A DNA stretch of 64,000 bases from an uncultured Caulobacterales bacterium (GTDB lineage Bacteria > Pseudomonadota > Alphaproteobacteria > Caulobacterales > Caulobacteraceae). Each line of letters begins with the position of its first letter. The first letter of the stretch is position 1. A program made the translations under genes and the position numbers. The DNA lies in the NCBI GenBank assembly GCA_903837135.1, contig CAILTK010000089.1, forward strand, positions 62,001-126,000, in the 5' to 3' direction. Shown piece after piece: positions 8,880-45,150 of the stretch. Under the pieces are notes generated by a model that was not told the origin of the DNA, searched no databases, and saw only the letters and a list, made by a program, of their open reading frames with translations.

Positions 8880-9290
8880 TTTCTACAACTCCAGTAATTG
8901 CGGATTTTCCGCCGTTATTATTATGCTGTTGAAGTATTATCTGAGGATTAACGTAATAAGAATAGTAAACTGTACTTGTATCGAGCAATAGATCATCACG
9001 CTGACGCTTTTCGGGCGCCGCGCTCACGCAGATAATTTCTGCCTTGTTGTATGACGCCGCCGGCGCGGTCGAGCCGCAGGAAGACAGTCGATTTTCTTCG
9101 GCCGTCCTTGCGGCCCCGCCGTCGACACCGATCGATCCGGCCTGAGGCGCCGCCCTGGCGGCGGCGTCTTGCCCCTGTGACCGATCAACTCCGAACCCCG
9201 CCGTCGCGAAAGACTCCGCTTCCCCCACCGCCGCGGCGGGAGGCCGCCTCCGCCGCTCCGCCGCCGAGCCGCCGGATCGTACGCGAAGAC

Positions 9291-10670
9291 ATGGTTTCGA
9301 AACCGCTGACCCTCGCGCTGGCCTGCCTCGCGCTGGTCGTGGTCGGGATCGGCGCCCACACCTTCGCCCGGGCGGTGCTGATGCATCACCATCGCACCGA
9401 CGTCGGCGCCTATTTTCGGGCAGCCTGGGCGGTGAAGACCGGCCACGATCCGTATGCGATCCTCGACGATCGCGGCTGGCACTACATCTATCCGCCGACG
9501 CCGGCGATCCTCAGCGCCCCGTTCGCCCTGCCGCCGAGCGGCGTCACGGCGGGCGCCGGCCTGCCCTACGCTTGGTCGATCGTGATCTGGTTCGCCCTCA
9601 GTCTGGCGGCGGTGTGCGCGGGGCTGCACCTTCTGGCCGAGGCGATCGAGGAGACGTCGACCAGCGCCGTCGTGCGCCATCCCCGGCGGTTCGGACGGCG
9701 CTGGTGGCTGTTGCGGATCATTCCGCTCTCGGTGGCGGGCTTCGGGATCGGCAACACCCTGGAGCGGGGACAGGTGACGGGCTTTCTTCTGCTGTGCGTG
9801 TGCGGCATGACGGCCGCGCTGATCCGGAGGCGGGATCGGCGCGCGGGCGCCTGGCTGGCCGCGGCCATCGTCATCAAGATCTATCCGGCCTATCTGCTGA
9901 TGCAGCTGGTCTTGCTCCGCCGCCGGCGCGCGCTCCTGTGGTGCATGATCGGTCTGGCGGTCGGCCTCGCCGTGATCCCGATCGGCGTCATGGGACTGCA
10001 CCGGACGCTGGAGGGCTATGCGAGCCTGGGGCGGCTGGTCCTCGTTCCGGCCTTCTCCGGAGAGCTGAACGCGTCGCGGATGGACTATCTCGACGAGGCC
10101 AACGGCAACATCAGCTCGTTCAGGATCGCCCTGTTCCGGTTGGCCTATCCCAATCCCGCCTTCAGGCCGGCGAGCGCGCCGGCGGTGTTCCTGCTCGCTC
10201 ACGTCTATCTGAGCGTCCTCGTCACGGTAATCACGCTTTGGGCGGCGCGCCCGCGGCTTGCACGGCCGGCCGTTCCCGATCCGATCGAGACCACCCTGCT
10301 GGCGGGCGCCCTGACGGTCGGCCTCCTGCCGATGATACCTCTGTCGCGGGACCACTATTTCGCCCTGGCGGCCCCCCTGGTGTTGGGCCTTGTCGCCCAC
10401 GTCTGGGATCGGCGCGGACGCAGCGACCTCGGCGGTCGCTGGCCGATCCTGTTCGGGGTCGTGGCCCTGTTCTCCATCGTCTGGGAAGTCCCCGGTTTCG
10501 CCCGGCTCAAGGACTTCCAGCCCGTGGTCTATGACGAGCTTCTGCTGTGGGCCGCCGGCGTCGTGGCTGTGAGCCAGCGCTCCGAAACCAACCTCTCGTT
10601 CGTGCGGACCTCGAGCGGGGCGAAGCGCGCCGACGATCCGGTGTTGGGCGCTGCGGCGCCCCGCCGATAG
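9291..10670 (+). CDS. Polytopic membrane glycosyltransferase, GT87 (DUF2029)-like
   Basis: In ORF 9051..10670, start at MVSKPLTLALACLALVV; RADVGAYFRAAWAVKTGHDPYA-type N-terminus, multiple TM helices, IKIYPAYLLMQLVLLRRRRALL. Confidence 0.75.
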   Translation: MVSKPLTLALACLALVVVGIGAHTFARAVLMHHHRTDVGAYFRAAWAVKTGHDPYAILDDRGWHYIYPPTPAILSAPFALPPSGVTAGAGLPYAWSIVIWFALSLAAVCAGLHLLAEAIEETSTSAVVRHPRRFGRRWWLLRIIPLSVAGFGIGNTLERGQVTGFLLLCVCGMTAALIRRRDRRAGAWLAAAIVIKIYPAYLLMQLVLLRRRRALLWCMIGLAVGLAVIPIGVMGLHRTLEGYASLGRLVLVPAFSGELNASRMDYLDEANGNISSFRIALFRLAYPNPAFRPASAPAVFLLAHVYLSVLVTVITLWAARPRLARPAVPDPIETTLLAGALTVGLLPMIPLSRDHYFALAAPLVLGLVAHVWDRRGRSDLGGRWPILFGVVALFSIVWEVPGFARLKDFQPVVYDELLLWAAGVVAVSQRSETNLSFVRTSSGAKRADDPVLGAAAPRR

Positions 10671-10770
10671 CGCCGGGCGTCTCTTCTGAGCGCGGGCCTT
10701 CGGCGGGCCGAACTGAGAACACCGCCGAACTGAGCACAACTGTCACACACGTGTGCGAAGGGACGACGCC

Positions 10771-11379
10771 ATGGCTGCGCCCTACGAAGCCCGAAGTCGA
10801 TGGTTGGCGCAGCACGTGTTGCCGCACGAGGCGGCGATACGGTCGCGCCTGCGGTATCTGACGCGCCGGTCGGACTGCGACGTCGATGACATCGTGCAGG
10901 AGACCTACGCCATCCTGGCGCGTCTGGAGAGCGTGGAGACTATCCGCAATCCGAGGCATTACGCCCTGCAGGTCGCCACCTCGGTGTTTCTGCAGGACGT
11001 GCGACGCAAGAAGGTGGTGGCGATCGGGTCGATGTCCGACCTCGCATCGCTGGAGCCGATCGATGATCGCCCGTCTCCGGAACAGAACGTATCCGGTCGA
11101 CAGGAACTCCGGCGCGTCCAGGCTGCGATCAACCTGATGCCGTCTCAAATCCGCAAGGTGTTCTGGCTGCGCCGCGTCGAAGGCCTCTCGCAGCGCGAGA
11201 CCGCCCATCAACTCGGCCTCGCCGAGCACACGATCGAGAAGTACGTGTCCCGGGGGCTGCAAATCCTGCTCGCCCAATTTGAGCATGGCGGAAATGCGCG
11301 TGTTGATGCATCCAACTCGAAAGACACCAGGCTCGCAGCATCCGATTCAGTAGATGGTCAATCGAGAAACGGCTCGTGA
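10771..11379 (+). CDS. ECF RNA polymerase sigma factor (FecI-like), system 1
   Basis: DVDDIVQETYAILARL (region 2) and LSQRETAHQLGLAEHTIEKYVSRGL (region 4). Confidence 0.88.
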   Translation: MAAPYEARSRWLAQHVLPHEAAIRSRLRYLTRRSDCDVDDIVQETYAILARLESVETIRNPRHYALQVATSVFLQDVRRKKVVAIGSMSDLASLEPIDDRPSPEQNVSGRQELRRVQAAINLMPSQIRKVFWLRRVEGLSQRETAHQLGLAEHTIEKYVSRGLQILLAQFEHGGNARVDASNSKDTRLAASDSVDGQSRNGS

Positions 11380-12355
11380 TATCGACGCCGCCGCGCGCGA
11401 CTGGGCGGCGAAGGCGTTGCGTGGCCTTTCTGAACCGGAGCAACGGGGGCTCGATGGCTGGCTCGAGGGAGACCCCCGCCGCCTCGGCGCCTTTGTCCGG
11501 GCCCAGGCGGCTTGGATCCATGCCGAGCGCGCCACCGCCCTTGGCTCAGGCGCCGGCCTGACCGAAACCTGGGGTGAGGAGGCGGTCGGTCCTCCCCACG
11601 CCGCCGGGCGAGGCCTCGATCGTCGTGTCCTGATCGCCGGAGGCGGCGCGCTGGCGGCGTCCGTCGCCGGCGGCATGTTCCTGCTCGACCGACCCCTCTC
11701 GATCGAAAGCGGCGTGGGAGAAATCCGCAGCCTCACCCTCGCCGGCGGCTCCACGCTCACCCTCGACACGGAGACGCGCGTGACGATCGCCCGGGGATCG
11801 GGGGACCGCCTGCTCGACCTGGTCCATGGCAAGGTGTTCCTCAACATCCTCGGCGCCGGTCGCCCGTTCACGCTTTCGGTCGGCGGACTCGCCCTGCGCA
11901 TGGCGTCGGGCGCGTTCGGCCTGGAATCCCTTGGGGACGCGCCGCTGTCCGTCTTCGTCACCGCCGGCCGGCTCGCCGTCTCCCAACGCCGGGGGCTGTG
12001 GGGCCAGACCCGGGCGATCACGCTCCCCGCCAACAGCGCGTTCAGCCTGCCGGTCGGGGCGGATGTGGACACGGCGAAGGTTCGCGCCATGGACGCGGAC
12101 GATGTGGACCGGCTGCTGGCCTGGCGGGACGGCATGCTGTCCTTCGGCGACGTAGCCCTGGCGACCGCCGTCCGCGCGTTCGACCGATACGGACCCGTCC
12201 GCATCGTGATCGCCGACCCTCGCCTCGCGCAGCAGAAGGTCACGGGCCTGTTTAAGGCGAACGACCCCGATGGGTTCGCCACCGCCATCGCCTCGAGTTT
12301 CGGCGCGGCCGTCTCACGCGACGGGAACGTTCTTCGAATCTTCATAAAAAAATAG
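11354..12355 (+). CDS. FecR family anti-sigma/transmembrane regulator, system 1
   Basis: N-terminal DUF4880-like segment (AARDWAAKALRGLSEPEQRGLDGWLEGDPRRLGAFVRAQAAW), one TM, FecR-type periplasmic domain; overlaps the sigma gene. Confidence 0.88.
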   Translation: MVNRETARDIDAAARDWAAKALRGLSEPEQRGLDGWLEGDPRRLGAFVRAQAAWIHAERATALGSGAGLTETWGEEAVGPPHAAGRGLDRRVLIAGGGALAASVAGGMFLLDRPLSIESGVGEIRSLTLAGGSTLTLDTETRVTIARGSGDRLLDLVHGKVFLNILGAGRPFTLSVGGLALRMASGAFGLESLGDAPLSVFVTAGRLAVSQRRGLWGQTRAITLPANSAFSLPVGADVDTAKVRAMDADDVDRLLAWRDGMLSFGDVALATAVRAFDRYGPVRIVIADPRLAQQKVTGLFKANDPDGFATAIASSFGAAVSRDGNVLRIFIKK

Positions 12356-12441
12356 CCGCCGGCGTATCCGGAAGATCGAAGACCTCTGCATCCCTCATTC
12401 CGAAGCGGCGGCCACAGCAGGCGGCTTCGGGGGACCGCACA

Positions 12442-15400
12442 ATGAATTTCTCAGAGCTTGGGAATATCTCGAGGTTTGGCTCGGTGCTCTTGCCGGTGTT
12501 GGCCTGCATGGCGCAACCGGCCTTCGCCCAGCAACGAACGTTCGACGTTCCTGAACAACCGGCGGTGGCCGGCATCCGCGCCTTCGCAAAACAGGCGGGC
12601 GTCCAGATCGTGGCGCCGACGTCGGGGCTCGGCGACCAGAAGACTCACGGCGTCAAGGGGGCCTTCACGGTGGAGGAGGGGCTTGCGATCCTGCTCAAAG
12701 GCACCGGCCTGCAGATGGCGACGCACAGCAATGGCGTCGTCAGCCTCGCCGTCGCGCCCAAACCCGTCGCGCCGCCGGCCAAGCCGCGGCCTGGTCCGGT
12801 CAAACCTGCGGATGCGCCCGTCGGCGAAGTCGGCGGCGGGGCCGCCACGCCCGTCGAGACGGTCGTCGTCACCGGCACGCGCATCGCCCGGCCCGAGCTG
12901 CAATCGACGATGCCGATCGCGGTCATCCATTCGCAGGACGCCAAGGATTTCGCCCGCGACACCGTTTACGACGCGCTTCTCCTCAATCCGGCGATCGGGC
13001 CGGGGCTTGGGGAGATGAACTCGCTCGGGCAGGAGTACGACCAGGGCGTCGCCAACATCAACCTGCGCAACCTCGGCCCCAACCGCTCGCTGGTGCTCGT
13101 CGACGGCGAGCGTTGGGTATCGAGCGGCGCACGGACCTCGGCGGTCGACCTCAACACCATTCCCACCGCCCTGATCGACCGCTTCGAAGTGGTGACCGGC
13201 GGCGCGGCGGCCATCTACGGCGCCGACGCGGTGACCGGTGTCGTCAATGTCATCATGAAGACCAAACTGTCCGGCGTGGACATGTCCGCGACCAGCGGGA
13301 TCTCCTCGCGCGGCGACGCCAACCAGGACAACGTGTCGGTCGCGACGGGCGGTGACTACGCCGACGGGCGCGGCCATTTCGTCATCGGCGGCGACTATAC
13401 CTACACGGCGCCGCTGAGCGATGAGAGCCGCTATTCCGGCCGCGTCGCCTACTATCCGAACGCCGCCTATACCGGTCCGGGGTCCGGCGTGCCGGCGAAT
13501 CTCCTGTATACCAATATACGCCAGATAAACCGCTCGTCGGTTCCCACGTTTTGTCTTCCGAGCGGCACCGCGTGCAAGCAATGGTACCAGTTGCTGAACG
13601 GGGTGGTCACACCTGTTCCCCAGAGCAGCTATCAGGTGCTCGTCGCCGGTGAAGTCGGCGTGCAGAACGGCGGCCCCAGCAACGCGGGCAACGCCTTTGA
13701 GAACCTTCTCCTGCGGCCGGAGGCCCAAAAGGGATCGCTCTATGCGCACACCTCTTACGCCCTGACGCCCACCATAACCTGGAGCGGCATGTTCAGCTAT
13801 GCGCGCAGCGCCGACCAGGCGACGCCCGAGTGGCCGCAGATCCGCGACGACGAGCGCCCGACCAACTGGTGGGGAGGAACCACCGCCGAAATCGCCACGC
13901 TGACCAACCCCTATCTGCCGGCGTCGCTGCGGCAGTTCATGCTCGCCAACAATCTTACCTCGATCCCGCTCGACCGGACCTACCTCAATCTTCCGAGGGC
14001 GTACGAATATGACGACCGTGAGAACATCACCCTCGGCTCCAACCTCGACGGCAAACTGACGAACAGGCTCAATTGGCAGGCCTTCGTCCGCTACGGACAG
14101 GTTTCCGACGACATTGAAACCACCCACATGATCGGCAAGGCCGAATGGCTGAACGCCCGCAATACCCTCGCCGATCCGGTGACCGGACAGATCGAATGCG
14201 CGGACGCCACGGCCCGCGCGAATGGATGCCAGCCGCTCAACTTCTTCAGCACGGCGCCCTATAGCCAATCGCTGCTCAATTACCTTGAACGATCCCGCCA
14301 CGAATCCAATTTCAATTCCCTCCTGACGACCGGCGCCAGTATCAACGGAAGTCTGTTCAGCCTGCCCGCCGGCGACGTCTCCACCGCCGCGGGGTTCGAA
14401 TGGAGGCGCGAGACGCTGCGCACGCGCGACGACCCGGACACCGCCAAGCTGAAGGACGTCGTGTTCTCGCCGGGCGAAGACTACGCCTTGCATCCGGCGC
14501 TCGACGCGTCCCGCGACACCACCGAAGTGTTCGGAGAAGTGCTGGTTCCGGTGCTCAGGGACCTGCCGCTCGTCAAGCATCTGTCGGTAGAGGGCGCCTA
14601 TCGATATTCCCATTATAGCGACAGCCAGGACACCCATACCTGGAAGGCCGGCGGAACGTGGGAGCTCCTGCGCGGATTGACCTTGCGCGGAGATTATTCG
14701 CACTCCGTCCGCGTGCCTAATTTCGGCGAACTTTTCTCTCCGCCCAACACCGCGACCTACGGGAACATCCCCGACCCCTGTCAGTCCGCCTACATCAACC
14801 AGAATCCCAATTACAAAGCCAATTGTACGGCCGTCTTGAGCGGCCTGACCGTGCCGTTGCCCACCCCCAACCTCAACGCGCCGGTCGTCCACAGCGGCGG
14901 AAACCCGGACCTGACGCCGGAGACGTCCAACAGCTTCACCTATGGCGCGGTCTTCCAGCCGAGATTTGCGCCGGGATTCGACCTGACTATCGACTACTGG
15001 GACATCACGATCAGCAGCGTCATAACTCAGCTTCCCTATATTACGATCCTGAACAACTGTTATGGGGCGGCGGGTGGTCCGGGCCAATTCTATTGCAACC
15101 TGATTTCACGCGACACCCAGGGAAACGTGGTCAGCGTCCAGGCTCTCTACGAAAACCTCTCCGGCGAGCACGCCCGCGGCGTCGACTTCGGCGCGAACTA
15201 CCGGACGCCGGTGGCCGGCGGCCTGTATCGGGCCAGCTTCAACGCGACCTACCTGGCGCAGCAGACCATCGTGGCGGCGGTGGGTCAGCCCGGCGTGGAC
15301 TATGCCGGGGAGTGGGATTTTCCGCGCTTCAAATTCACCCTTCTCAACCAGTATTCGTTCGGGAAATTCTCCTTCGGGATCAACACCAGGTATATCAGTA

Positions 15401-15678
15401 GAAGCAAATACAACTCGACCGCCGTTTCCAATCAGATCTACCAGTATCCCTTCATCGGAGAGAAGATCTACAACGATCTGACGCTCACCTACCGTCCGGT
15501 CGAGCGATACGACGTGACCTTCGGCGTGAAGAATGTGGCGGACACGCAGGTGCCCCTCGAACTGCAGGCCAACAGCGTTTCTCCCCATTCCGCGGGCAGC
15601 TATTTCGGCGGCAGCGGGGCTGCGGACTATGACGCGATCGGGCGATATTTCTTCGTGAAGTTCAATGCCCACTTCTGA
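12442..15678 (+). CDS. TonB-dependent receptor with N-terminal STN (signalling) domain, system 1
   Basis: 1078 aa; signal peptide, STN-like segment (FDVPEQPAVAGIRAFAKQAGVQIVAPTSGL), VETVVVTGTRI TonB box, plug and barrel, C-terminal FVKFNAHF. Confidence 0.93.
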   Translation: MNFSELGNISRFGSVLLPVLACMAQPAFAQQRTFDVPEQPAVAGIRAFAKQAGVQIVAPTSGLGDQKTHGVKGAFTVEEGLAILLKGTGLQMATHSNGVVSLAVAPKPVAPPAKPRPGPVKPADAPVGEVGGGAATPVETVVVTGTRIARPELQSTMPIAVIHSQDAKDFARDTVYDALLLNPAIGPGLGEMNSLGQEYDQGVANINLRNLGPNRSLVLVDGERWVSSGARTSAVDLNTIPTALIDRFEVVTGGAAAIYGADAVTGVVNVIMKTKLSGVDMSATSGISSRGDANQDNVSVATGGDYADGRGHFVIGGDYTYTAPLSDESRYSGRVAYYPNAAYTGPGSGVPANLLYTNIRQINRSSVPTFCLPSGTACKQWYQLLNGVVTPVPQSSYQVLVAGEVGVQNGGPSNAGNAFENLLLRPEAQKGSLYAHTSYALTPTITWSGMFSYARSADQATPEWPQIRDDERPTNWWGGTTAEIATLTNPYLPASLRQFMLANNLTSIPLDRTYLNLPRAYEYDDRENITLGSNLDGKLTNRLNWQAFVRYGQVSDDIETTHMIGKAEWLNARNTLADPVTGQIECADATARANGCQPLNFFSTAPYSQSLLNYLERSRHESNFNSLLTTGASINGSLFSLPAGDVSTAAGFEWRRETLRTRDDPDTAKLKDVVFSPGEDYALHPALDASRDTTEVFGEVLVPVLRDLPLVKHLSVEGAYRYSHYSDSQDTHTWKAGGTWELLRGLTLRGDYSHSVRVPNFGELFSPPNTATYGNIPDPCQSAYINQNPNYKANCTAVLSGLTVPLPTPNLNAPVVHSGGNPDLTPETSNSFTYGAVFQPRFAPGFDLTIDYWDITISSVITQLPYITILNNCYGAAGGPGQFYCNLISRDTQGNVVSVQALYENLSGEHARGVDFGANYRTPVAGGLYRASFNATYLAQQTIVAAVGQPGVDYAGEWDFPRFKFTLLNQYSFGKFSFGINTRYISRSKYNSTAVSNQIYQYPFIGEKIYNDLTLTYRPVERYDVTFGVKNVADTQVPLELQANSVSPHSAGSYFGGSGAADYDAIGRYFFVKFNAHF

Positions 15679-15697
15679 AGACGCGGCCGTAAGGGGA

Positions 15698-16612
15698 ATG
15701 ACCGCAATGGCCCGTGCGCGTCGTCGGCGATGGGGCAGGGCCGCCCTGGCGGGGATCGGGGCGCTGCTGGTCGGCGGCTTCGCGCCGTCCCTGGCCGCCG
15801 AGGCGGCCAAGCCGCTCATCGTCGCCCATCGGGGCGGGGCGGCGCTGATGCCGGAGAACACCTTTCCGGCGTTCGACAACGCCGTCCGGCTCGGCGCCGA
15901 CCTGCTCGAATTCGACATGCAGATGACGGCGGACGACCAGCTCGTCATCTCCCATGACGGGACGGTCAACCCGACATTCTGCACCGCCGACCCGGGATCA
16001 GGCGTGACGCCAGGCCCGATCCGGGCGATGAGGCTGGCCGATGTCCTGAAGTTCGATTGCGGGGCGAGGCATCGCGCCATCTATCCCGCCCAGACGTCGG
16101 TCCCCGGAACGCCCATGCCGACGCCGGACGCCTTCTTCGAACGCTATGCGGGCGCGCCCGTGCAGTTCTACGGCGAAACCAAGATGCCGGGCGCCGGGGA
16201 GGGCGATGTCGATCCGGTGGCTTTCACCAGACTCGTCGCGGCGGTGGTGCGCCGATACGGGCTCGAGGACCGTTTCATCCTTCAGTCCGCGGACTATCGT
16301 ACGATCGACGCCATGCACGCGATCGATCCCCGCATCCGAACCTGCCTGCTTTATCCCTGGCTCGCCAAAACCGACTATCTCGACCTTGCCCGCAAGCACC
16401 ACGCCGTGTGCATGCTCCTGCGCCTGCAGGACGCCGACGCCGCCGAGGTCAGGCGGTTGCAAGCCGCAGGCGTGATGGTGTTTTCCGATGTCGTCGATGA
16501 CGAGGCGGGCTGGAGCCGATATCTGGCCCGCGGCGACGACGCCCTCTTCACCAACGACCCGGCGGGGCTGGCCGTCTTCCTGAAGCGCTCCCGTTCGCCC
16601 GGACGACGATAG
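15698..16612 (+). CDS. Glycerophosphodiester phosphodiesterase, secreted
   Basis: Signal peptide then LIVAHRGGAALMPENTFPAFDNAVRLGADLLEFDMQMTADDQLVISHDGTV, classic GDPD motif. Start could also be 15707. Confidence 0.92.
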   Translation: MTAMARARRRRWGRAALAGIGALLVGGFAPSLAAEAAKPLIVAHRGGAALMPENTFPAFDNAVRLGADLLEFDMQMTADDQLVISHDGTVNPTFCTADPGSGVTPGPIRAMRLADVLKFDCGARHRAIYPAQTSVPGTPMPTPDAFFERYAGAPVQFYGETKMPGAGEGDVDPVAFTRLVAAVVRRYGLEDRFILQSADYRTIDAMHAIDPRIRTCLLYPWLAKTDYLDLARKHHAVCMLLRLQDADAAEVRRLQAAGVMVFSDVVDDEAGWSRYLARGDDALFTNDPAGLAVFLKRSRSPGRR

Positions 16613-16698
16613 GCGACGACGACCTGGGATGGCGGCTTTGTGTACGCGCTGAAATCTCGTATGCCTGTGGCGGGCGGGTCGAAGAAGGTAACGGTTGA

Positions 16699-17217
16699 AT
16701 GGCGCCGCCGGACAGGCCCGCTCTGCTCTCCACCTATCTGGCGAGGCGCCCGGACCTGATCCGCTTCTTCACCGCGCGGCTCAAGTCGTCCGCGGCGGCG
16801 GAGGATCTGGTGCAGGAGATCTATCTGCGGCTCCAGCGCGCCGATCCGGGGGCCGTGCGCGACCCGACGGCCTTTCTCTATCGCACCGGATGGAACCTGA
16901 TGCTGGACCAGCTGCGCCAGCAGAGACGCGGGGCCGCGCGGGACGCGGCGTGGAGCGGGCTCGAGGTGGTCGGCGCCGGCGAGGTCGCGCTCGACCCGGC
17001 CCCGCTCGCCGATGCGGCGCTGGAGGCGAACGACCGGCTGCGCCGCCTGCTCATCCGCCTCGACACGCTTCCGGCGCAGACCCAGAGGGCTTTCCGGCTG
17101 CACAAGTTCGATGGGCTGTCGCACGCCGAGACGGCGGCGCGGCTGGGGATCTCCCGAAGCGCGGTCGAAAAGCACATCAGCGCCGCTTTGAAGCAGCTGG
17201 TGGAGGACGATCGGTGA
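16699..17217 (+). CDS. ECF RNA polymerase sigma factor (FecI-like), system 2
   Basis: AEDLVQEIYLRLQRADPGAVRDPTAFLYRTGWNLMLDQLRQQRR and LSHAETAARLGISRSAVEKHISAALKQL. Confidence 0.92.
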   Translation: MAPPDRPALLSTYLARRPDLIRFFTARLKSSAAAEDLVQEIYLRLQRADPGAVRDPTAFLYRTGWNLMLDQLRQQRRGAARDAAWSGLEVVGAGEVALDPAPLADAALEANDRLRRLLIRLDTLPAQTQRAFRLHKFDGLSHAETAARLGISRSAVEKHISAALKQLVEDDR

Positions 17218-17278
17218 GGGGGTCGTTGCGCCGTGGCGTCATAGGACGGATAGGGCTGTTCGTTTGGAGCCGGTGGCG

Positions 17279-18274
17279 ATGACCCACCAGGACGATGGGG
17301 TGAATGTGAGCGAGCTCGGAGGCGAGGCGAGCGACTGGTTCGTCCGGCTGCAGGCGGAAGACGCCGGCGCCGACGACTGGCTGGCGTTCGAGCGCTGGCT
17401 CGGCGAGGATCCGGCGCACGAGGCCGCCTTTCGCAAGGTGGAGGCCGCCTGGGTGGACCTCGACGCCGCGCCCTCCGCCGCCTCGCTCTCCGCCCATCCT
17501 GTCGGCCATACGGCGCAGATCATCCCTCTTCCGGTGCGCGCCCGGCCCGCGCGGCGACGCTGGCGCCTGCCGGTCGCCATCGCCGCGTCGGTGGCCGTCG
17601 TCGTGGGCGCCGCCGGTGTGATGACCGTGGTCTCCCCCCGCCGGGCGCCGGCGCCCGCGTCGGGTCTGGCCCGGGCCCGGGACATCCCGATTCCCGGCGG
17701 CGGTTCAATCCATGTCGACGCGGGGACGACGTTGAGCCTGCGGCGATCAGGGGCGCGGATCGAAGCCGCGATGGGTCCGGGACGGGCGCTTTTCACGGTG
17801 CCGCATGACCCACGCCGCCGCTTCATCGTCCGTGCGGGCGCGCAGACCATCACCGATATCGGCACTCGCTTCGACGTGCAGCGGGACGACATGCGCCTGC
17901 GCGTCGCGGTCGCGGACGGCGAGGTGGCGGAGTCCGACAGCGACCCCGACTACAATGTGCTCAGGGTGAGCGCCGGCCAGTCGGCGGTGAGCGGGCCGGG
18001 CGAAGGCGGCGCGCGGCTGCTCCTGGCCTCGGGTGCTCCGATCCAGAAGGTCTACGACCGGGCGACGCTCGGTCAGGTGGTCGGCGACCTGAACCGGATC
18101 TACGCCCGTCCGGTCAGACTGGCCCCGGGCTGCGCCGAACTCAGCTTCACCGGCGCCTTGATTATGGATTCACAGGACGCGGTTCTGCATAGACTGGCGG
18201 CTTTCCTGGATCTCGAGGTCGCACCGTCTCCCACCGCCGTCCTGCTCAGCAAAGCCGCTTCGACTCCCCGGTGA
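17279..18274 (+). CDS. FecR family regulator, system 2
   Basis: In ORF 17264..18274; EASDWFVRLQAEDAGADDWLAFERWLGEDPAHEAAFRKVEAAW (DUF4880), TM, FecR domain (IPGGGSIHVDAGTTLSLRRSGARIEAAMGPGRALFTV). Confidence 0.9.
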   Translation: MTHQDDGVNVSELGGEASDWFVRLQAEDAGADDWLAFERWLGEDPAHEAAFRKVEAAWVDLDAAPSAASLSAHPVGHTAQIIPLPVRARPARRRWRLPVAIAASVAVVVGAAGVMTVVSPRRAPAPASGLARARDIPIPGGGSIHVDAGTTLSLRRSGARIEAAMGPGRALFTVPHDPRRRFIVRAGAQTITDIGTRFDVQRDDMRLRVAVADGEVAESDSDPDYNVLRVSAGQSAVSGPGEGGARLLLASGAPIQKVYDRATLGQVVGDLNRIYARPVRLAPGCAELSFTGALIMDSQDAVLHRLAAFLDLEVAPSPTAVLLSKAASTPR

Positions 18275-20685
18275 TCCTGGGCCTGGGCGCCCGTGCGGCG
18301 CTGCTGCTTGCGCTCGCGGCGCCCGCGACCGCGTTCGCCGCCTCCGAGCTCAAGGGTTTCAGTATCGGGCCGGAGCGGTTGGATCGGGCCTTGATCGACT
18401 TCGCGCGGCAGGCGGGTCTCTCCCTGGCCGATCGCAGCGGGGCGGCGTGCGGATCCAGGCGGGTCGGCCTCGAGGGGCGATATACCCCGCGCGAGGCGCT
18501 GGATCGTCTGCTTCGAGACAGCGGCTGCGCCTACCGTTTCGCCGACGCTTCGGCGGTGATCGTCTATGCGGTCGCCTTGCCGTCGCCCCCCGCTCCAGCG
18601 CAAAAGGTCAGACCGCCGACGCCGTCGCCGGTAAGCGTCGAGCCCGATGAGATCACGGTGCTGGCCACGCGCCAACCGGCGCCGATCGCCCGCTCACCCT
18701 ACAGCGTCACCAAGATCGAGGCGGCGACGCTGACCGCGCTCGACATCACCGACGGCGCCGCCCTCGCGCCCCTGGTGGCCGGCATGACCGTCACCAACCT
18801 GGGGGCCGGCCGCGACAAGATCTTCCTGCGCGGCCTGTCCGACGGCGTGCTGACCGGTCGGACCCAATCCACCGTCGGCCTGTATCTCGACGATGTCGCG
18901 ATCAGCTACGACGCGCCCGACCCGGACCTGCGCCTGGTCGACATCTCCGCGGTGGAGGTCCTGCGTGGACCGCAGGGGGCCATCTATGGGTCGGGCTCGA
19001 TCGCCGGCATCGTCCAGTACCAGTCGCGCCAGCCCGATCTTAGAGACTACACCGCCGAGGTCTCAGCCGAGATCGGCGCCACCCAGGGCGGCGCGCCGAG
19101 CGCCGCGGTCGAGGGGGTTCTGAATCTGCCTCTGCTCAGCGACCGGCTCGCCCTGCGGCTGGTCGGATACCAGGAGGAGGACGGCGGCTACATCGACGAC
19201 ATGACGCTCGGGCGCAGGAACGCCGACCGGACGCGGCGGTCCGGCCTGCGCGCCATCGCGCTCCTGCATCTGGACCAGGGCTGGACCGTCAAGCTCGGCG
19301 GCGTCGTGCAAGCGCTGGATTCCGCGGACAGCCAGTACACCGCCGGCGGATCGCCCGCCTATCAGCGCGCGGCGAACCTGCTGGAGCCGCACGACAACGA
19401 CTTCAGCGAGGTCTACGCGGAGGTTTCGCGGCGGTGGCGCGGTGTGGCCTTCAAGTCGGTCACGGCGCTGATCCATCACCAGCTCGACACCCGCTACGAC
19501 GCGACCGACGCCCTGCCGCTGCTCGCTCCGGGCGTGGGCGGAATCGCCGCCTTCGACGACGGCGCGCGCAAGCACCTGTTGAGCGAGGATCTGTCCCTGG
19601 CGTCAGTGGGGGAACGGCGTCTGCAGTGGCTGATCGGCGCCTACTACCTTCGCGACAACGAAACCGATCATTCGCTGCTGAGCAGCCTCTCCAGCCCGAT
19701 GCTGGGCGCCCTCTACGGCGAAACGCGCAGGGACCTGCGGGAGGACTACGCCATCTATGGCGAGGCGACGCTGGCGCTGACGTCCAGGCTCTATCTGACC
19801 GCCGGGGCGCGACTGTTCCGGACCGATCTTCAGGTGGACTCCCGGACCGCCCCCGGCGCCGGCGCCGTCGATGTGGGCGAGCACGAGAAGGGCCTCGCGC
19901 CCAAGCTGGTGCTTCGCTACGACCTCGACCCGCGCCTGCTGGTCTACATCCAGGCGACCGAAGGCTATCGCGGCGGCGGCGCCAACACGGCGGGCCTGGC
20001 GCCGCCGTCCGCGGCGCCGACCGTGGCGGGGCAGGCCAGCCCATTCTATCGGGGCGACGAGCTCTGGAACTTCGAGGGCGGGATGAAGGCCAACGGCTGG
20101 GACGGCGCGGTCGAGGCGCATGTCGCGGTCTTCTACGACAGCTGGAGCCGGGTGCAGTCGGATCAGCTGCTGGCGTCCGGCCTTTCCTATACCGCAAATG
20201 TCGGCTCGGCCGACAACTGGGGACTGGAGGCCGAAACCGCGATCAGGCCTATGCGCGGCCTGGAGCTGCGCTCGAACCTGACGGTCAACGATCCGCACCT
20301 GGACGTCCGGGACTCGAACCTCGCGGTGTTCCGGGACGCCCTGCTTCCGGGCATCGCGCGGGTGTCGGGCGGGGGCGGCGTATTCTATACGGCGGCTCTG
20401 CCCTTGGGGCTGACGGGAGAGGCGGCGCTCCAGGCCAGCTATACCGGCCGCTCCCACGTCAGCTTCGACCCGACCGTCTCGAGCGTCATGGGCGGCTATG
20501 TCGCCACCCGCGGCGTGATCGGGGTGGGGAGGGACGGGTGGCGACTTCAGCTGACGGTGCAGAACCTCGCCAATCAGGGCGCCAACACCTTCGCCTACGG
20601 CAATCCGTTCAGTCAGCGCTTCGCCGCCCAGGTCACGCCCGAACGGCCGCGCACGGCGACCCTGCGGCTCAGCGCGAAATTCTGA
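18271..20685 (+). CDS. TonB-dependent receptor with STN domain, system 2
   Basis: 804 aa; STN segment (FSIGPERLDRALIDFARQAGLSLADRSG), EITVLATRQPAPIARSPYSVTKIEA box, VEVLRGPQGAIYGSGSIAGIVQY plug, C-terminal ATLRLSAKF; start overlaps the fecR stop (GTGA). Confidence 0.92.
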   Translation: MILGLGARAALLLALAAPATAFAASELKGFSIGPERLDRALIDFARQAGLSLADRSGAACGSRRVGLEGRYTPREALDRLLRDSGCAYRFADASAVIVYAVALPSPPAPAQKVRPPTPSPVSVEPDEITVLATRQPAPIARSPYSVTKIEAATLTALDITDGAALAPLVAGMTVTNLGAGRDKIFLRGLSDGVLTGRTQSTVGLYLDDVAISYDAPDPDLRLVDISAVEVLRGPQGAIYGSGSIAGIVQYQSRQPDLRDYTAEVSAEIGATQGGAPSAAVEGVLNLPLLSDRLALRLVGYQEEDGGYIDDMTLGRRNADRTRRSGLRAIALLHLDQGWTVKLGGVVQALDSADSQYTAGGSPAYQRAANLLEPHDNDFSEVYAEVSRRWRGVAFKSVTALIHHQLDTRYDATDALPLLAPGVGGIAAFDDGARKHLLSEDLSLASVGERRLQWLIGAYYLRDNETDHSLLSSLSSPMLGALYGETRRDLREDYAIYGEATLALTSRLYLTAGARLFRTDLQVDSRTAPGAGAVDVGEHEKGLAPKLVLRYDLDPRLLVYIQATEGYRGGGANTAGLAPPSAAPTVAGQASPFYRGDELWNFEGGMKANGWDGAVEAHVAVFYDSWSRVQSDQLLASGLSYTANVGSADNWGLEAETAIRPMRGLELRSNLTVNDPHLDVRDSNLAVFRDALLPGIARVSGGGGVFYTAALPLGLTGEAALQASYTGRSHVSFDPTVSSVMGGYVATRGVIGVGRDGWRLQLTVQNLANQGANTFAYGNPFSQRFAAQVTPERPRTATLRLSAKF

Positions 20686-20762
20686 TTTCGCAGGACGGTC
20701 GAGGCTGAGGGGCCGGCGTCGCCGCGGCGTCACTCCTGTGTCACCGCGTGTGGGAGGCGTGA

Positions 20763-20951
20763 ATGTCGATCCGTCAGTTCGTGGACGCCGGGCGAGCGCC
20801 GGACGCCGGGCGGCGATCCGCGGGCCCCCTTTCCACCCTGCGGCGGCTCGCGCTGGGGCTCGCGCTGTTGACCGCCATGACCGGACTGGCCGGCGCCTGG
20901 CTGCGCTTCGAACTCCCCGCCGCGATGGACGGCTATACCCTCAGCGACTAG
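20763..20951 (+). CDS. Small single-TM hypothetical protein (62 aa), possibly a remnant
   Basis: RBS-like GGGAGGCG before [65 protein letters not shown]; one hydrophobic helix. Confidence 0.4.
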
Positions 20952-40868: not shown

Positions 40869-43013
40869 TTGAAACGGAGCGGGGCGATGATGGTCGGGGC
40901 GAACGGGATAGGGCGGCGGCGCGGTCTCAGAGGCGTGCTGTCGGCCGGCGCCGCGCTCGGCGCCCTGTCCGGGGGCCTGGCCGGCGCCCCGGGGGCCCTG
41001 GCGCAGGTGCAGACCGGTCCCATCGAAACCGGTCCCATCCAAACCGGGCGCCTTGAGACCGGCCCCATCGAATCGGTGGTGGTGACGGCGCTGAAACGGC
41101 CCCAGCAGATGCTGGCCGTTCCCGCCAGCATCGACGTGCTGAGCGACCGGGACCTGGCCCGCGATCAGGTGCTGAACATCGAGGATCTGGGCAGGATCGC
41201 GCCCAACGTGGCCGTGGCTCAGTTCGGCGACGGCCAGTACCGGTTGATCTATCGCGGCCTCGGCGCCACCGGAACGTCGGACAATGAGAACTTCAACGTC
41301 GCCTATGACGGGACGGTCGTGCCCTACGGCAACGCCTATCGGCTGCTCGACCTGCAGCAGGTGGAGATCCTGCGCGGGCCCCAGGGCACCCTTTACGGCC
41401 GAAACACCAACGCCGGCCTGATCAACATCGTCCCGAGGGACGGCAGCGTCCCCGCCCCGGCGACCGCGGACATCGTCTATGGCAGCTTCAACACGGCCGG
41501 TATTTCCGGCGCCGCCGGCGGCCCGGTGGGCGATTCAGGCCTGTTTTTCCGTGTGGCCGCGCGCGGCGAGCAGACCGATGGCTTCATCGACAATCGCGCC
41601 CTGCCGCGCGACCATACCGACCAGAGCAAGAACGGAACGGTGAGGGCCACAGTCGGCTGGGAGGGCGGCGCCTGGAAGGCCAAGATCGCGCTGACCTATG
41701 ATCGCTACAACGGCGACACCGACGACCTGACGCCGGCGACCACGCCCTATTCCAGCCCCGCGCCGGACGTGGGCAAGAGCAGCGGTCACCTCACCACGCC
41801 GATCATCACCCTGTCCTACAAGGGCGGCGACTACACCTTCACCTCGACCACCGCCTTCGCGGACACGGCCAGGGTCTTGACCTTCTCCTCGGTGATCGCG
41901 CCGATCCTCAACGGCCAGTCCGACCGCCGCGACACCCTGAGCCAGGAATTCCGCTTCGCGGGCGACGCCGACCTCTTCGGGCGGCCGACCAATTGGGTGA
42001 CCGGACTCTACCTGCTGAACGAAAACGACACCTTCGTCAGCACCCTCAACCTCACCCATCCGGTCAACCTGCCGCTGCTGTACCAACACCAGCACGAAAA
42101 CCTGCAATCCGAAGCCCTGTTCGGCGAGGCGGTCACCAGCTGGTCGGAGCACTGGAAGACCACCGTCGGCCTGCGGCTCGCCGACGAGCGCCAGTCTTAC
42201 GACTATGTGCTCAGCCGAACCGGCGCGGTGATGGGAGCGGACCAGTCCTATCCCACCGTGCAGCCGAAACTGGTGCTGGCCTACCTGCCCGACCGGCAAT
42301 CGCAGGTCTACGGCTCGGTCACGCGCGGCTTTCGGGCCGGGGCGGTGTTCGTCAACAACGCGCTGCAAAATCCCGGCGATCCCGGCTATAAGCCGGAGAA
42401 CACCTGGCAGTACGAACTTGGCTACAAGCGCGCCATGGATGGCGGGCGCCTGCAGTTTCAGGCCGATGTCTTCTACATCGACTGGACCGACCTGCAGGTC
42501 CAGCGCAGTATCCTGAGCGTCGCGCCGGCCGGGGTGTTCTCGGTCGTGGACAACGCCAGCAGCGCGCGCAGCTACGGCGGCGAGGGCGAAGCGACCTGGC
42601 GACCCCTGCGCGGGCTGCAACTCTACGCCAAGGGCGGCTACACCAACGCCAGGTACGTGGATTTCCGGCCCTCGCCCACCTTGAACTACAGCGGCCACCG
42701 CATCGAGGAGACTCCGGAGTTTTCGGCCGGCGGGGGCTTCGACTATCTGACGCCCGTGGGCGTGGAGGTGGCGGCGGACGTCACCCGCTACGGTTCGATG
42801 GCCTATGACGCGGCCAACTCCATCGAACAGAAACCCTATACTCTGCTCAACGCATCGGTGGCCTACGCCCTGGGCGATTGGCGCCTGTCCGTCACCGGGC
42901 GAAATCTTCTGGACGAACGATACGCCAACCGAGGTCTGACCTCGGGGGGGCAGGCCTATATCCACGCCGCCCCGCCGGCCAACGTGATGGCCGAACTGTC
43001 GCTTCGCTACTGA
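40869..43013 (+). CDS. TonB-dependent receptor
   Basis: ESVVVTALKRPQQMLAVPASIDVLSDRDL TonB box/plug; VEILRGPQGTLYGRNTNAGLINIV; C-terminal NVMAELSLRY. Confidence 0.94.
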   Translation: MKRSGAMMVGANGIGRRRGLRGVLSAGAALGALSGGLAGAPGALAQVQTGPIETGPIQTGRLETGPIESVVVTALKRPQQMLAVPASIDVLSDRDLARDQVLNIEDLGRIAPNVAVAQFGDGQYRLIYRGLGATGTSDNENFNVAYDGTVVPYGNAYRLLDLQQVEILRGPQGTLYGRNTNAGLINIVPRDGSVPAPATADIVYGSFNTAGISGAAGGPVGDSGLFFRVAARGEQTDGFIDNRALPRDHTDQSKNGTVRATVGWEGGAWKAKIALTYDRYNGDTDDLTPATTPYSSPAPDVGKSSGHLTTPIITLSYKGGDYTFTSTTAFADTARVLTFSSVIAPILNGQSDRRDTLSQEFRFAGDADLFGRPTNWVTGLYLLNENDTFVSTLNLTHPVNLPLLYQHQHENLQSEALFGEAVTSWSEHWKTTVGLRLADERQSYDYVLSRTGAVMGADQSYPTVQPKLVLAYLPDRQSQVYGSVTRGFRAGAVFVNNALQNPGDPGYKPENTWQYELGYKRAMDGGRLQFQADVFYIDWTDLQVQRSILSVAPAGVFSVVDNASSARSYGGEGEATWRPLRGLQLYAKGGYTNARYVDFRPSPTLNYSGHRIEETPEFSAGGGFDYLTPVGVEVAADVTRYGSMAYDAANSIEQKPYTLLNASVAYALGDWRLSVTGRNLLDERYANRGLTSGGQAYIHAAPPANVMAELSLRY
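41013..41072 (+). repeat. 4 x 15-bp in-frame tandem repeat just before the TonB box
   Basis: ACCGGTCCCATCGAA/ACCGGTCCCATCCAA/ACCGGGCGCCTTGAG/ACCGGCCCCATCGAA encoding TGPIE-TGPIQ-TGRLE-TGPIE. Confidence 0.85.
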
Positions 43014-43062
43014 ACAAGACGACCTGCGCGGGCGGCGCGCCCTTTCTCCCGGAGACGACACG

Positions 43063-45150
43063 ATGGCCAATCGGCGTGAGTTCCTGAAGACGTCCTCGGC
43101 TGTGCTCGGCGTGTTCGTCGCCGTCGCTGCGCCCGCCTTCGCCCCCGCCGTTCACGCCACTGAGAACGCCGCCGATAGCCGCTACCCCCAGGGCGTGGCC
43201 TCGGGCGATCCGACTCCGGATGGAATCGTGCTCTGGACCCGGGCGCAGCCGTCGGCCGGCGAAAGCGATGTTGCGCTCGTCCTGCAACTCAGCAGACGAA
43301 GCGACTTCAAGACCGTAGCCCTCGAAAAGTCGCTGAAGGCTTTGGCCGGCGTCGACCATACCTGCCGGGTGGTGGTCACCGGGCTCGAGCCTGCGACGAC
43401 CTACTACTACCGGTTCATCGACGACGCCCACAGGACCTCGACCGTTGGTCGCACGCGCACGGCCCCGGCTCCCACCGCCGACGTCGAGGCGCGGTTCGCC
43501 CTGGCTTCGTGCCAGAACTTCCAGACCGGTTACTACCACGCCTACCGCCGCCTTCTGGAGCAAGAGCGGACGGCGGGCCCGGAGGCGCGGATCGACTTCG
43601 TGCTGTTCGTAGGCGACTTCATCTACGAGATGATCTTTCCGGCGAGGATGGGCGTACCGACGCGGCCGCTGGCCTTCCCCGGCAAGCCGTGGGACGACCA
43701 CAACCAGAACTTCGGCCAGAAGATCGAACTGCAGTACGCCGAGACGGTGGACGAATACCGCTATCTCTATCGGGGATGTCTCGCCGATCCGTGGCTGCGG
43801 GCGGCTCGGCAGAACTGGCCCTTCATCTGCATCTTCGACGACCATGAAGTGGCCGACGACTATTGGCAGTCGATGACCGTCTATCAGCCGCCGGGCACGC
43901 CGACCCAGCGGCGCAAGGTGGCCGGCAACCAGGCCTATTTCGAATATATACCGACCATGCTGTCGGATCTGCCGCGTCAGAACCCGGCCTATGACTTCAA
44001 ACCGGTCCAGGTCCAGGATGTCCCGTTCGGCGCGGTCGACGACCTCAACCGCAGCACTGAGCCCAACAATCTGGCGGCGATCCACAGCATCAACATCACG
44101 CGGCGACTGCAATGGGGGCGACACCTCGACCTCATCCTGGCCGACAGCCGCTCCTATCGCTCCGAGCATCCCGTGCCCGGCTTGATCGGCCAAAAGCTGT
44201 CCTTCCATCCCCGGGCCCTGCTTCCCCGTGGGCTGGTCGAGGAGATGGACGCGGGCAGGACCGCCCACGGCGGGCATCCGCGCGAAACGGTCGAGGCGCG
44301 GGGCATGAGCTTCCCCAACGCCCGCAGGACCACGCCGGTCGGCACCATGTACGGCGCAGATCAGAAGGCCTGGGTGAAATCCCAACTGAAGGCGTCGACG
44401 GCCACGTGGAAGGTCTGCGTCAACTCGGTGCCGCAGACCCCGCTCAGCTTCGATTTCCGCTTCGAGGGGCGCTCGATCGCGCCGGACGAGGTGGTGATGA
44501 CCGACTCCTGGGAAGGCTATCCCGGCGAGCGCCGCGAAATGCTGGAGTTCGTGCGCGACAGCCGCATCGCCAACTACATCTCGCTCTCAGGCGATCATCA
44601 CATGCACTTCTGCGGCCTGCTGAGCCCCGATCGGGACGACGGCGGGGCGGGCGCGGTGGGGGTCGAGTTCGTCTGCGCGGGGATCAGTTCGGCCAGCTTC
44701 GGCGATGTCCTGCGCTCGTTCATGAAGGCCAAGGCGCCGGGGACCGAGGCCGAAACCCTGGTGGGGGGGCCGCCGGTCGCCGCCGGTCGCCCCGCCCTGC
44801 CGTGGACCGGCGTCACCGCCCTCTACGGCTGGGAGGAATCCCTGCGCTGCGCCAAGGCCTCCGGCCCCGCCGGCGCCGTCCGGCCCTCGGCGGGGCGTCG
44901 CCGGCAGACGCATATTCCCTACATGGATTCGGATTCCTACGGCCTGTGCGTGGCCACGGCCACGGCGTCGGACTTTCGGGTGGACTTCGTCACCTTCGAC
45001 CTGAAGCAGGTCTACACCGACTACGCCGAACCTGCCGAACCGCGCTACGTCGCGCGCTTCAACGTCCCGGTCCAGGCCGCAGGGGCGAAGGTGGTGCTGC
45101 AAGGCCCGACCTTCGCCGGCGAACCGCCCTTCCCCTATAGCAAAGCGTGA
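43063..45150 (+). CDS. phoD: PhoD-type alkaline phosphatase/phosphodiesterase, Tat-secreted
   Basis: NRREFLKTSSAVLG Tat leader; YPQGVASGDPTPDGIVLWTRAQP; FALASCQNFQTGYYHAYRRL; VLFVGDFIYE; CIFDDHEVADDYW. Confidence 0.93.
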   Translation: MANRREFLKTSSAVLGVFVAVAAPAFAPAVHATENAADSRYPQGVASGDPTPDGIVLWTRAQPSAGESDVALVLQLSRRSDFKTVALEKSLKALAGVDHTCRVVVTGLEPATTYYYRFIDDAHRTSTVGRTRTAPAPTADVEARFALASCQNFQTGYYHAYRRLLEQERTAGPEARIDFVLFVGDFIYEMIFPARMGVPTRPLAFPGKPWDDHNQNFGQKIELQYAETVDEYRYLYRGCLADPWLRAARQNWPFICIFDDHEVADDYWQSMTVYQPPGTPTQRRKVAGNQAYFEYIPTMLSDLPRQNPAYDFKPVQVQDVPFGAVDDLNRSTEPNNLAAIHSINITRRLQWGRHLDLILADSRSYRSEHPVPGLIGQKLSFHPRALLPRGLVEEMDAGRTAHGGHPRETVEARGMSFPNARRTTPVGTMYGADQKAWVKSQLKASTATWKVCVNSVPQTPLSFDFRFEGRSIAPDEVVMTDSWEGYPGERREMLEFVRDSRIANYISLSGDHHMHFCGLLSPDRDDGGAGAVGVEFVCAGISSASFGDVLRSFMKAKAPGTEAETLVGGPPVAAGRPALPWTGVTALYGWEESLRCAKASGPAGAVRPSAGRRRQTHIPYMDSDSYGLCVATATASDFRVDFVTFDLKQVYTDYAEPAEPRYVARFNVPVQAAGAKVVLQGPTFAGEPPFPYSKA

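Follow-up and report, generated by a model that had tools for sequence, protein, structure and literature searches.

Gene organization of the locus

We analyzed a 64,000-nt window of contig CAILTK010000089.1 (positions 62,001 to 126,000, forward strand) from an uncultured Caulobacterales bacterium of the family Caulobacteraceae (assembly GCA_903837135.1). The window contains two surface-signaling modules, each composed of an extracytoplasmic function (ECF) sigma factor, a FecR protein and a TonB-dependent transducer (TBDT), with a gene for a glycerophosphodiester phosphodiesterase (GDPD) between them. Open reading frames (ORFs) and domain profiles gave a densely spaced gene row on the plus strand, sigma1-FecR1-TBDT1-GDPD-sigma2-FecR2-TBDT2, and all seven genes were found at the place and on the strand given in an original prediction made from the letters of the window. 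The genes, in window positions, are as follows.

10771 (ATG; alternative GTG at 10753) to 11379, plus strand: sigma1, FecI-like ECF sigma factor of module 1 (PF08281, E = 1e-12; TIGR02937, E = 2e-18)
11354 to 12355, plus strand: FecR1, membrane anti-sigma factor or sigma regulator (PF04773, E = 3e-8)
12442 to 15678, plus strand: TBDT1, 1078-aa TonB-dependent transducer (STN; plug, E = 7e-17; barrel, E = 1e-31)
15698 (alternative ATG at 15665) to 16612, plus strand: GDPD, predicted periplasmic glycerophosphodiester phosphodiesterase (PF03009, E = 2e-29)
16699 to 17217, plus strand: sigma2, FecI-like ECF sigma factor of module 2 (PF08281, E = 7e-15; PF04542, E = 6e-13)
17279 to 18274, plus strand: FecR2, membrane anti-sigma factor or sigma regulator (DUF4880, E = 9e-14; PF04773, E = 2e-11)
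18271 to 20685, plus strand: TBDT2, 804-aa TonB-dependent transducer with STN, plug and barrel (start overlaps the FecR2 stop)

With a start at 15665, the GDPD gene would overlap the TBDT1 stop. The FecIRA-type set of parts, in which a FecI-like ECF sigma factor, a FecR and an STN receptor come together, is present in both modules, and module 2 additionally has a conserved promoter-like element ahead of its regulator and receptor genes. STN-like N-termini on both receptors had also been predicted. The STN profile matched residues 54-102 of TBDT1 (12601-12747; E = 1.6e-5, 25.1 bits) and residues 61-98 of TBDT2 (18451-18564; E = 1e-5, 25.7 bits), both scores being slightly lower than the Pfam cut-off of 28.4 bits. 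The FecA profile NF041676 aligns from residue 19 of TBDT1 and residue 14 of TBDT2, and the solved transducers FecA and FpvA align with both receptors from the N-terminus. These N-terminal alignments support the weak calls, and the two STN domains appear to be real but weak. In FecR1, DUF4880 gave no match even at an E-value of 0.05, while the N-terminus of the protein looks DUF4880-like by eye. No iron-related gene was found among the window neighbors of module 1 that were examined.

Co-occurrence of GDPD and TBDT1 in other genomes

When only the GDPD was used as the query, one other of 149 genomes of the family yielded an orthologue, and there was no further one in 398 genomes of the order or among 385 genomes of the class, where other matches were at most 41% identical; over the family, the order, the class and two further families, the GDPD searches yielded just one more orthologue. 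A scan of genome contigs added two, in Sphingomonas quercus (70% identity) and in a Sphingomonadaceae metagenome genome (49% identity). In all three of these other loci (L009, L010 and L011, one of the three being from a genus of the same family), which were found by GDPD sequence, the GDPD gene lies directly after a TBDT1-type receptor gene with sigma and FecR genes upstream. The original prediction had been made to depend on the GDPD not being absent from orthologous loci, and it is present in each of these independently found ones. As a control, we used the loci of the 17 next-closest GDPDs of the class, none of which has a sigma/FecR module; any TBDT was detected nearby in one (L118), the calls being made with home-made profiles that are insensitive to distant receptors and with Pfam for large ORFs that looked possible. 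The difference between three of three linked loci and none of 17 controls gives an exact P of 1/1140, with the window itself left out. Searching the class with a TBDT1 profile at E ≤ 1e-180, a cut-off at which moderately distant relatives would be lost as well, yielded no more loci.

In trees, the TBDT1-linked GDPDs form a single clade (support 100/99), and a clade with 100/100 support unites TBDT1 of the window with its counterparts in S. quercus and genome G097. sigma1 falls in a clade (99/98) with the sigma factors encoded at two of the GDPD loci, G097 and L010, and in a third S. quercus module. The S. quercus region (L106, 2-18960) holds three sigma/FecR/TonB-receptor modules within ~19 kb around the GDPD locus, and the sigma factor and FecR of the third module are closer to sigma1 and FecR1 than those beside the GDPD-linked receptor.

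A second phosphoesterase is encoded after the GDPD in two of the three other loci, PhoD in that of S. quercus and a type I phosphodiesterase in L010. The S. quercus GDPD locus also contains a second, STN-less TBDT1 copy. In genome G092, a TBDT1 relative that lacks both the GDPD and the sigma/FecR genes is followed by an adjoining PF04185 phosphoesterase.

These loci bear on the possibility that the GDPD is a chance passenger beside two ordinary iron-carrier systems of the FecIRA type. Sets of FecI, FecR and an STN receptor are indeed best known from iron carriers (PMC9249621). However, the retention of the GDPD beside TBDT1 across at least two bacterial families, with the extra phosphoesterases in two loci, and the lack of sigma/FecR modules around the control GDPDs speak against a passenger, and we consider this explanation quite unlikely.

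In the genome studied here, a TBDT gene adjoins two of the three other GDPD loci (L110, 5488-9477; L112, 3080-9920; contigs C7 and C69). One of these two is a row of a LysR-like gene, a TBDT, an MFS transporter and two GDPD genes, which looks like an uptake operon with cytoplasmic cleavage. Elsewhere in the window (40869-45150), a TonB-dependent receptor gene with no detected STN is followed by a gene for a PhoD-like phosphatase (E = 6e-67), with a TetR gene upstream, minus strand.

The predicted GDPD enzyme and its substrate

The protein has the TIM-barrel fold and the HRG, E-x-D and HD catalytic motifs that characterize PF03009, and the motifs HRGG, PENT, ExD and HD are kept in all four GDPD orthologues. 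Its N-terminus resembles a signal peptide by eye. The predicted model (mean pLDDT, the predicted local distance difference test, of 77) matches structures of GlpQ-type GDPDs, among them 3ch0 (E = 1e-18) and Bacillus subtilis GlpQ (5t9b, E = 3e-18).

It is possible, but on balance doubtful, that the substrate of module 1 is one particular phosphodiester of a sugar or lipid, resembling xanthosan, an opine or a lysophospholipid, and not generic glycerophosphodiesters. XanT-XanP is a precedent, being a pair of TonB-dependent receptor and phosphodiesterase for one sugar phosphodiester (PMC12807533), and enzymes of the GDPD fold include phospholipase D-type members, which were also among our fold matches. 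Against such a narrow substrate, the nearest profile and fold matches are GlpQ-type glycerophosphodiesterases, and no gene in the locus points to another substrate.

Module 2 and its distribution

TBDT2 matches at E ≤ 1e-80 were found in 65 of the 149 family genomes, including the genome studied here and both other genomes of the same genus that were searched. TBDT2 is accompanied by sigma and FecR genes in 12 of 14 fetched loci, and a GDPD is present in none of the 14, of which one is cut by a contig end. sigma2 is up to 63% identical to the sigma factor adjoining TBDT2 in other family genomes, and TBDT2 forms a clade with its same-genus homologues (99/99). Judged by these comparisons, module 2 is a separate and common surface-signaling module, and the GDPD belongs to module 1 only.

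The nearest solved relatives of TBDT2 are the siderophore or metallophore receptors FyuA (pesticin receptor), FpvA, FoxA and CntO. In addition, one relative has a gene for a VIT-family transporter next to TBDT2, and another encodes there a protein whose N-terminus looks similar. Both observations favor the iron-carrier explanation as far as module 2 is concerned, for which an iron reading is reasonable. The ligand of module 2 probably differs from that of module 1, a metallophore being the likeliest guess. The original prediction that both modules sense phosphodiesters and not iron is supported for module 1, where the GDPD and the extra phosphoesterases recur, and is not supported for module 2, given its GDPD-free loci and its receptor relatives.

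Other partners of module 2 in the relatives are glycosyltransferases and a T_hemolysin/AMP-binding operon, which in one locus is joined by a haem-oxygenase-like gene. The sigma2-type promoter motif described below precedes the T_hemolysin (PF12261) operon in several relatives (L074, L076, L078, L080, L084 and L087); in L074, TBDT2 has the operon on its opposite flank. The operon encodes an AMP-binding enzyme, accompanied at some loci by a haem-oxygenase-like or SDR gene, and may represent a receptor-tied small-molecule pathway.

A sigma2-type promoter motif

Upstream of sigma2 in eight relatives we found the motif TGAGG-N17-CGTC with invariant spacing, reading away from sigma2. When a 31-bp matrix trained on these eight sites was applied to 11 relatives, it recovered held-out sites, not used in training, in the sigma2-FecR2 gap of 10 of them (per-site probability multiplied by gap length ≤ 0.01). 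The three best matches in the window are all on the plus strand, and they are listed here with the two further genes that they concern.

9141 to 9171, plus strand: sigma2-type motif before the GT87 gene, which precedes module 1 (score 20.0, best in the 64-kb window)
9291 to 10670, plus strand: GT87 family membrane glycosyltransferase (PF09594, E = 3e-18), left neighbor of module 1 and putative sigma2 target
17213 to 17243, plus strand: sigma2-type motif between sigma2 and FecR2, overlapping the sigma2 stop (score 19.7, second in the window)
20704 to 20734, plus strand: sigma2-type motif just after TBDT2 (score 15.3, third in the window)
20763 to 20951, plus strand: 62-aa ORF with one hydrophobic stretch, directly after the third motif

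Column-permuted matrices gave a mean of 0.17 matches of at least 16.5 bits in the window, compared with two for the real matrix. The motif was found only with the module 2 group. In the window, there is no such site in the sigma1-FecR1 or FecR1-TBDT1 stretch, nor directly before sigma1 or sigma2. GT87 fits as a target of module 2, because the motif-bearing neighbors in the relatives include GT2/GtrA glycosyltransferases. Downstream of the third motif, the 62-aa ORF is the sole close ORF on the plus strand; no homologue of it was found among the motif-bearing targets of the relatives. Between 8.8 and 21 kb we found no sigma-70 promoter, and terminator-like sites were no more frequent than expected by chance, with none in the GT87-sigma1 or GDPD-sigma2 gap.

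Relation and origin of the two modules

A recent duplication of the modules, one of the origins raised in the original prediction, is rejected by sequence identity and trees: sigma1 and sigma2 are 26% identical, TBDT1 and TBDT2 can be aligned only over ~240 N-terminal residues at ~27% identity, and the two sets fall in separate clades.

Module 1 is sporadic in the family, with TBDT1 in three and the GDPD in two of the 149 genomes. At 70% identity, the GDPD is close to its S. quercus counterpart, although SecA of the genome studied here is only 57% identical to that of Sphingomonas parapaucimobilis, a value that speaks against Sphingomonadaceae as the host family. The GC content at third codon positions (GC3) is 0.75-0.85 for the module 1 genes and mostly 0.85-0.94 for other genes of the window. 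The high GDPD identity despite the SecA distance and the lower GC3 fit a horizontal acquisition, although neither is proof, and module 1 was probably acquired in this way and inserted between GT87 and sigma2.

We also considered whether the locus is one wired unit, in which sigma2 drives GT87 and module 1 by read-through, module 1 reads through into sigma2, and two ligands jointly control phosphodiester uptake. The motif ahead of GT87, whose stop is ~100 bp before sigma1, would allow the first step; the GDPD-sigma2 gap of 86 bp and the lack of terminator-like sites in either gap would allow the second, and a sigma2-type site that is present before sigma2 in eight relatives is absent here. Moreover, a TBDT2-type module abuts the S. 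quercus GDPD locus too, in divergent orientation. However, co-inheritance of the two modules with S. quercus is rejected by the receptor and sigma trees, in which the S. quercus neighbor module and an unlinked homologue share a clade of sphingomonads, so that the adjacency there was not inherited jointly. TBDT1 is also missing from nearly all of the 64 other family genomes that have a TBDT2 relative, and the read-through itself is hypothetical. We regard a single wired unit as unlikely.

The sigma2-type site ahead of GT87 and module 1 makes cross-talk between the modules possible, and read-through between the circuits could occur across the two gaps, in which we found no terminator-like site. 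In its most extended and rather improbable form, this would give two circuits in series, in which sigma2 via the 9141 site primes the acquired module 1 and module 1 transcribes sigma2, such that envelope glycosylation and the scavenging of organic phosphorus would be under the joint control of a phosphodiester and a second signal.

Proposed function of module 1

We favor, as a probable though not secure reading, that module 1 is a surface-signaling uptake locus for glycerophosphodiester-type organic phosphodiesters that was inserted beside module 2, a separate module with a different ligand. Gene order, domains, GDPD-TBDT1 co-conservation and motif conservation are observed, and from them we infer the ligand, the signal flow, the direction of regulation and the periplasmic location of the enzyme. 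TBDT1 would bind and import the phosphodiester and, once loaded with ligand, would signal through its STN domain to FecR1. FecR1 would then free sigma1, leading to higher expression of TBDT1 and GDPD. The periplasmic GDPD would cleave the diester to glycerol-3-phosphate and an alcohol for phosphorus (and carbon) nutrition, phosphorus being suggested over carbon by the PhoD and phosphodiesterase partners in the relatives. sigma2, via its own promoter motif, would drive FecR2-TBDT2 and the envelope glycosyltransferase gene.

Several observations weigh against this proposal. A more distant TBDT1 homologue on a plasmid of Novosphingobium MBES04 (32% identity, with STN, sigma and FecR) is followed by an amidase, and the receptor family as a whole is thus not confined to phosphodiesters; the substrate class may instead be indicated by whichever gene follows the receptor. 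In that plasmid (L089, 5025-11871), the sigma, FecR and TBDT1-like receptor genes are annotated merely as hypothetical proteins. The GDPD-TBDT1 pair is known from four loci only, and the S. quercus sigma factor and FecR next to TBDT1 diverge from sigma1 and FecR1. We did not find a sigma1 motif: when the stretches preceding sigma1 and TBDT1 were compared visually across four loci, no convincing shared pair of boxes emerged. A Pho box search of the 64-kb window with three mismatches gave two matches, which is the chance level, and neither is near the modules. Finally, the GDPD could have a role in carbon use or lipid turnover.

Comparison with known systems

Our literature search found no report that combines a glycerophosphodiester phosphodiesterase, a TonB-dependent receptor, FecR and an ECF sigma factor. 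The nearest known kind appears to be the phosphate utilization systems (PUS) of Flavobacterium, with XanT-XanP also close. In F. johnsoniae, the clusters PUSI-III, which encode phosphoesterases and ECF/FecR regulators together with TonB-dependent or SusCD transporters, are strongly induced by depletion of inorganic phosphate, and in PUSII a FecR is joined with a PhoA bearing pf13653 (GDPD_2) (PMC8115612). They share with module 1 a TonB-dependent outer-membrane transporter, an ECF sigma factor and/or FecR and a secreted phosphoesterase in one cluster. In contrast, PUSI and PUSII use SusCD pairs, while here there is a single TBDT and no SusD-like gene, all genes between 9 and 21 kb being otherwise accounted for; the PUS also belong to a different phylum, and the locus studied here has a stand-alone GDPD immediately after an STN-type receptor.

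The Xanthomonas XanT-XanP system, a TonB-dependent transporter co-transcribed with a phosphodiesterase, for which phosphodiester uptake and use were demonstrated (PMC12807533), shares this transporter-enzyme pair with module 1. XanP, however, is a 2H-phosphoesterase, and the nearby regulator is of the ROK type and not ECF/FecR. The carbohydrate utilization (CUT) loci similarly combine a TonB-dependent receptor, a dedicated hydrolase and a regulator for a non-iron nutrient but differ in substrate class and regulator type (PMC1790865). In sphingomonad organophosphate uptake, a TonB system is tied to a phosphotriesterase and phosphate nutrition; there, the substrates are triester insecticides and the enzyme is another one, and neither FecR nor a sigma factor is mentioned in the text that was searched (PMC7142613).

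The FecIRA system for ferric citrate in Escherichia coli (PMC9249621) has the sigma-FecR-receptor order, the receptor STN and the FecR domain in common with both modules and, with module 2, also a conserved promoter-like motif before the FecR-receptor genes. It differs from module 1, which has a phosphodiesterase and no iron gene found beside it. ECF/FecR surface signaling in Proteobacteria is usually taken as iron sensing, and the original prediction cited FecIRA-type signaling as established for ferric-siderophore receptors. The premise of an iron-only scheme is too narrow, since ECF and FecR genes are phosphate-responsive in the Flavobacterium organophosphate clusters (PMC8115612). Here, signaling of a type familiar chiefly from iron uptake probably serves phosphorus nutrition. 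With the sigma2 motif, it should be possible to map the receptor modules of this kind in the family, which form a large group that appears not to have been studied. If our reading of module 1 is correct, its compact four-gene set would sense phosphodiesters at the cell surface, as opposed to sensing only low internal phosphate, and this conserved, GDPD-linked alphaproteobacterial version would extend ECF/FecR signaling to organic-phosphate foraging, in parallel to Flavobacterium.

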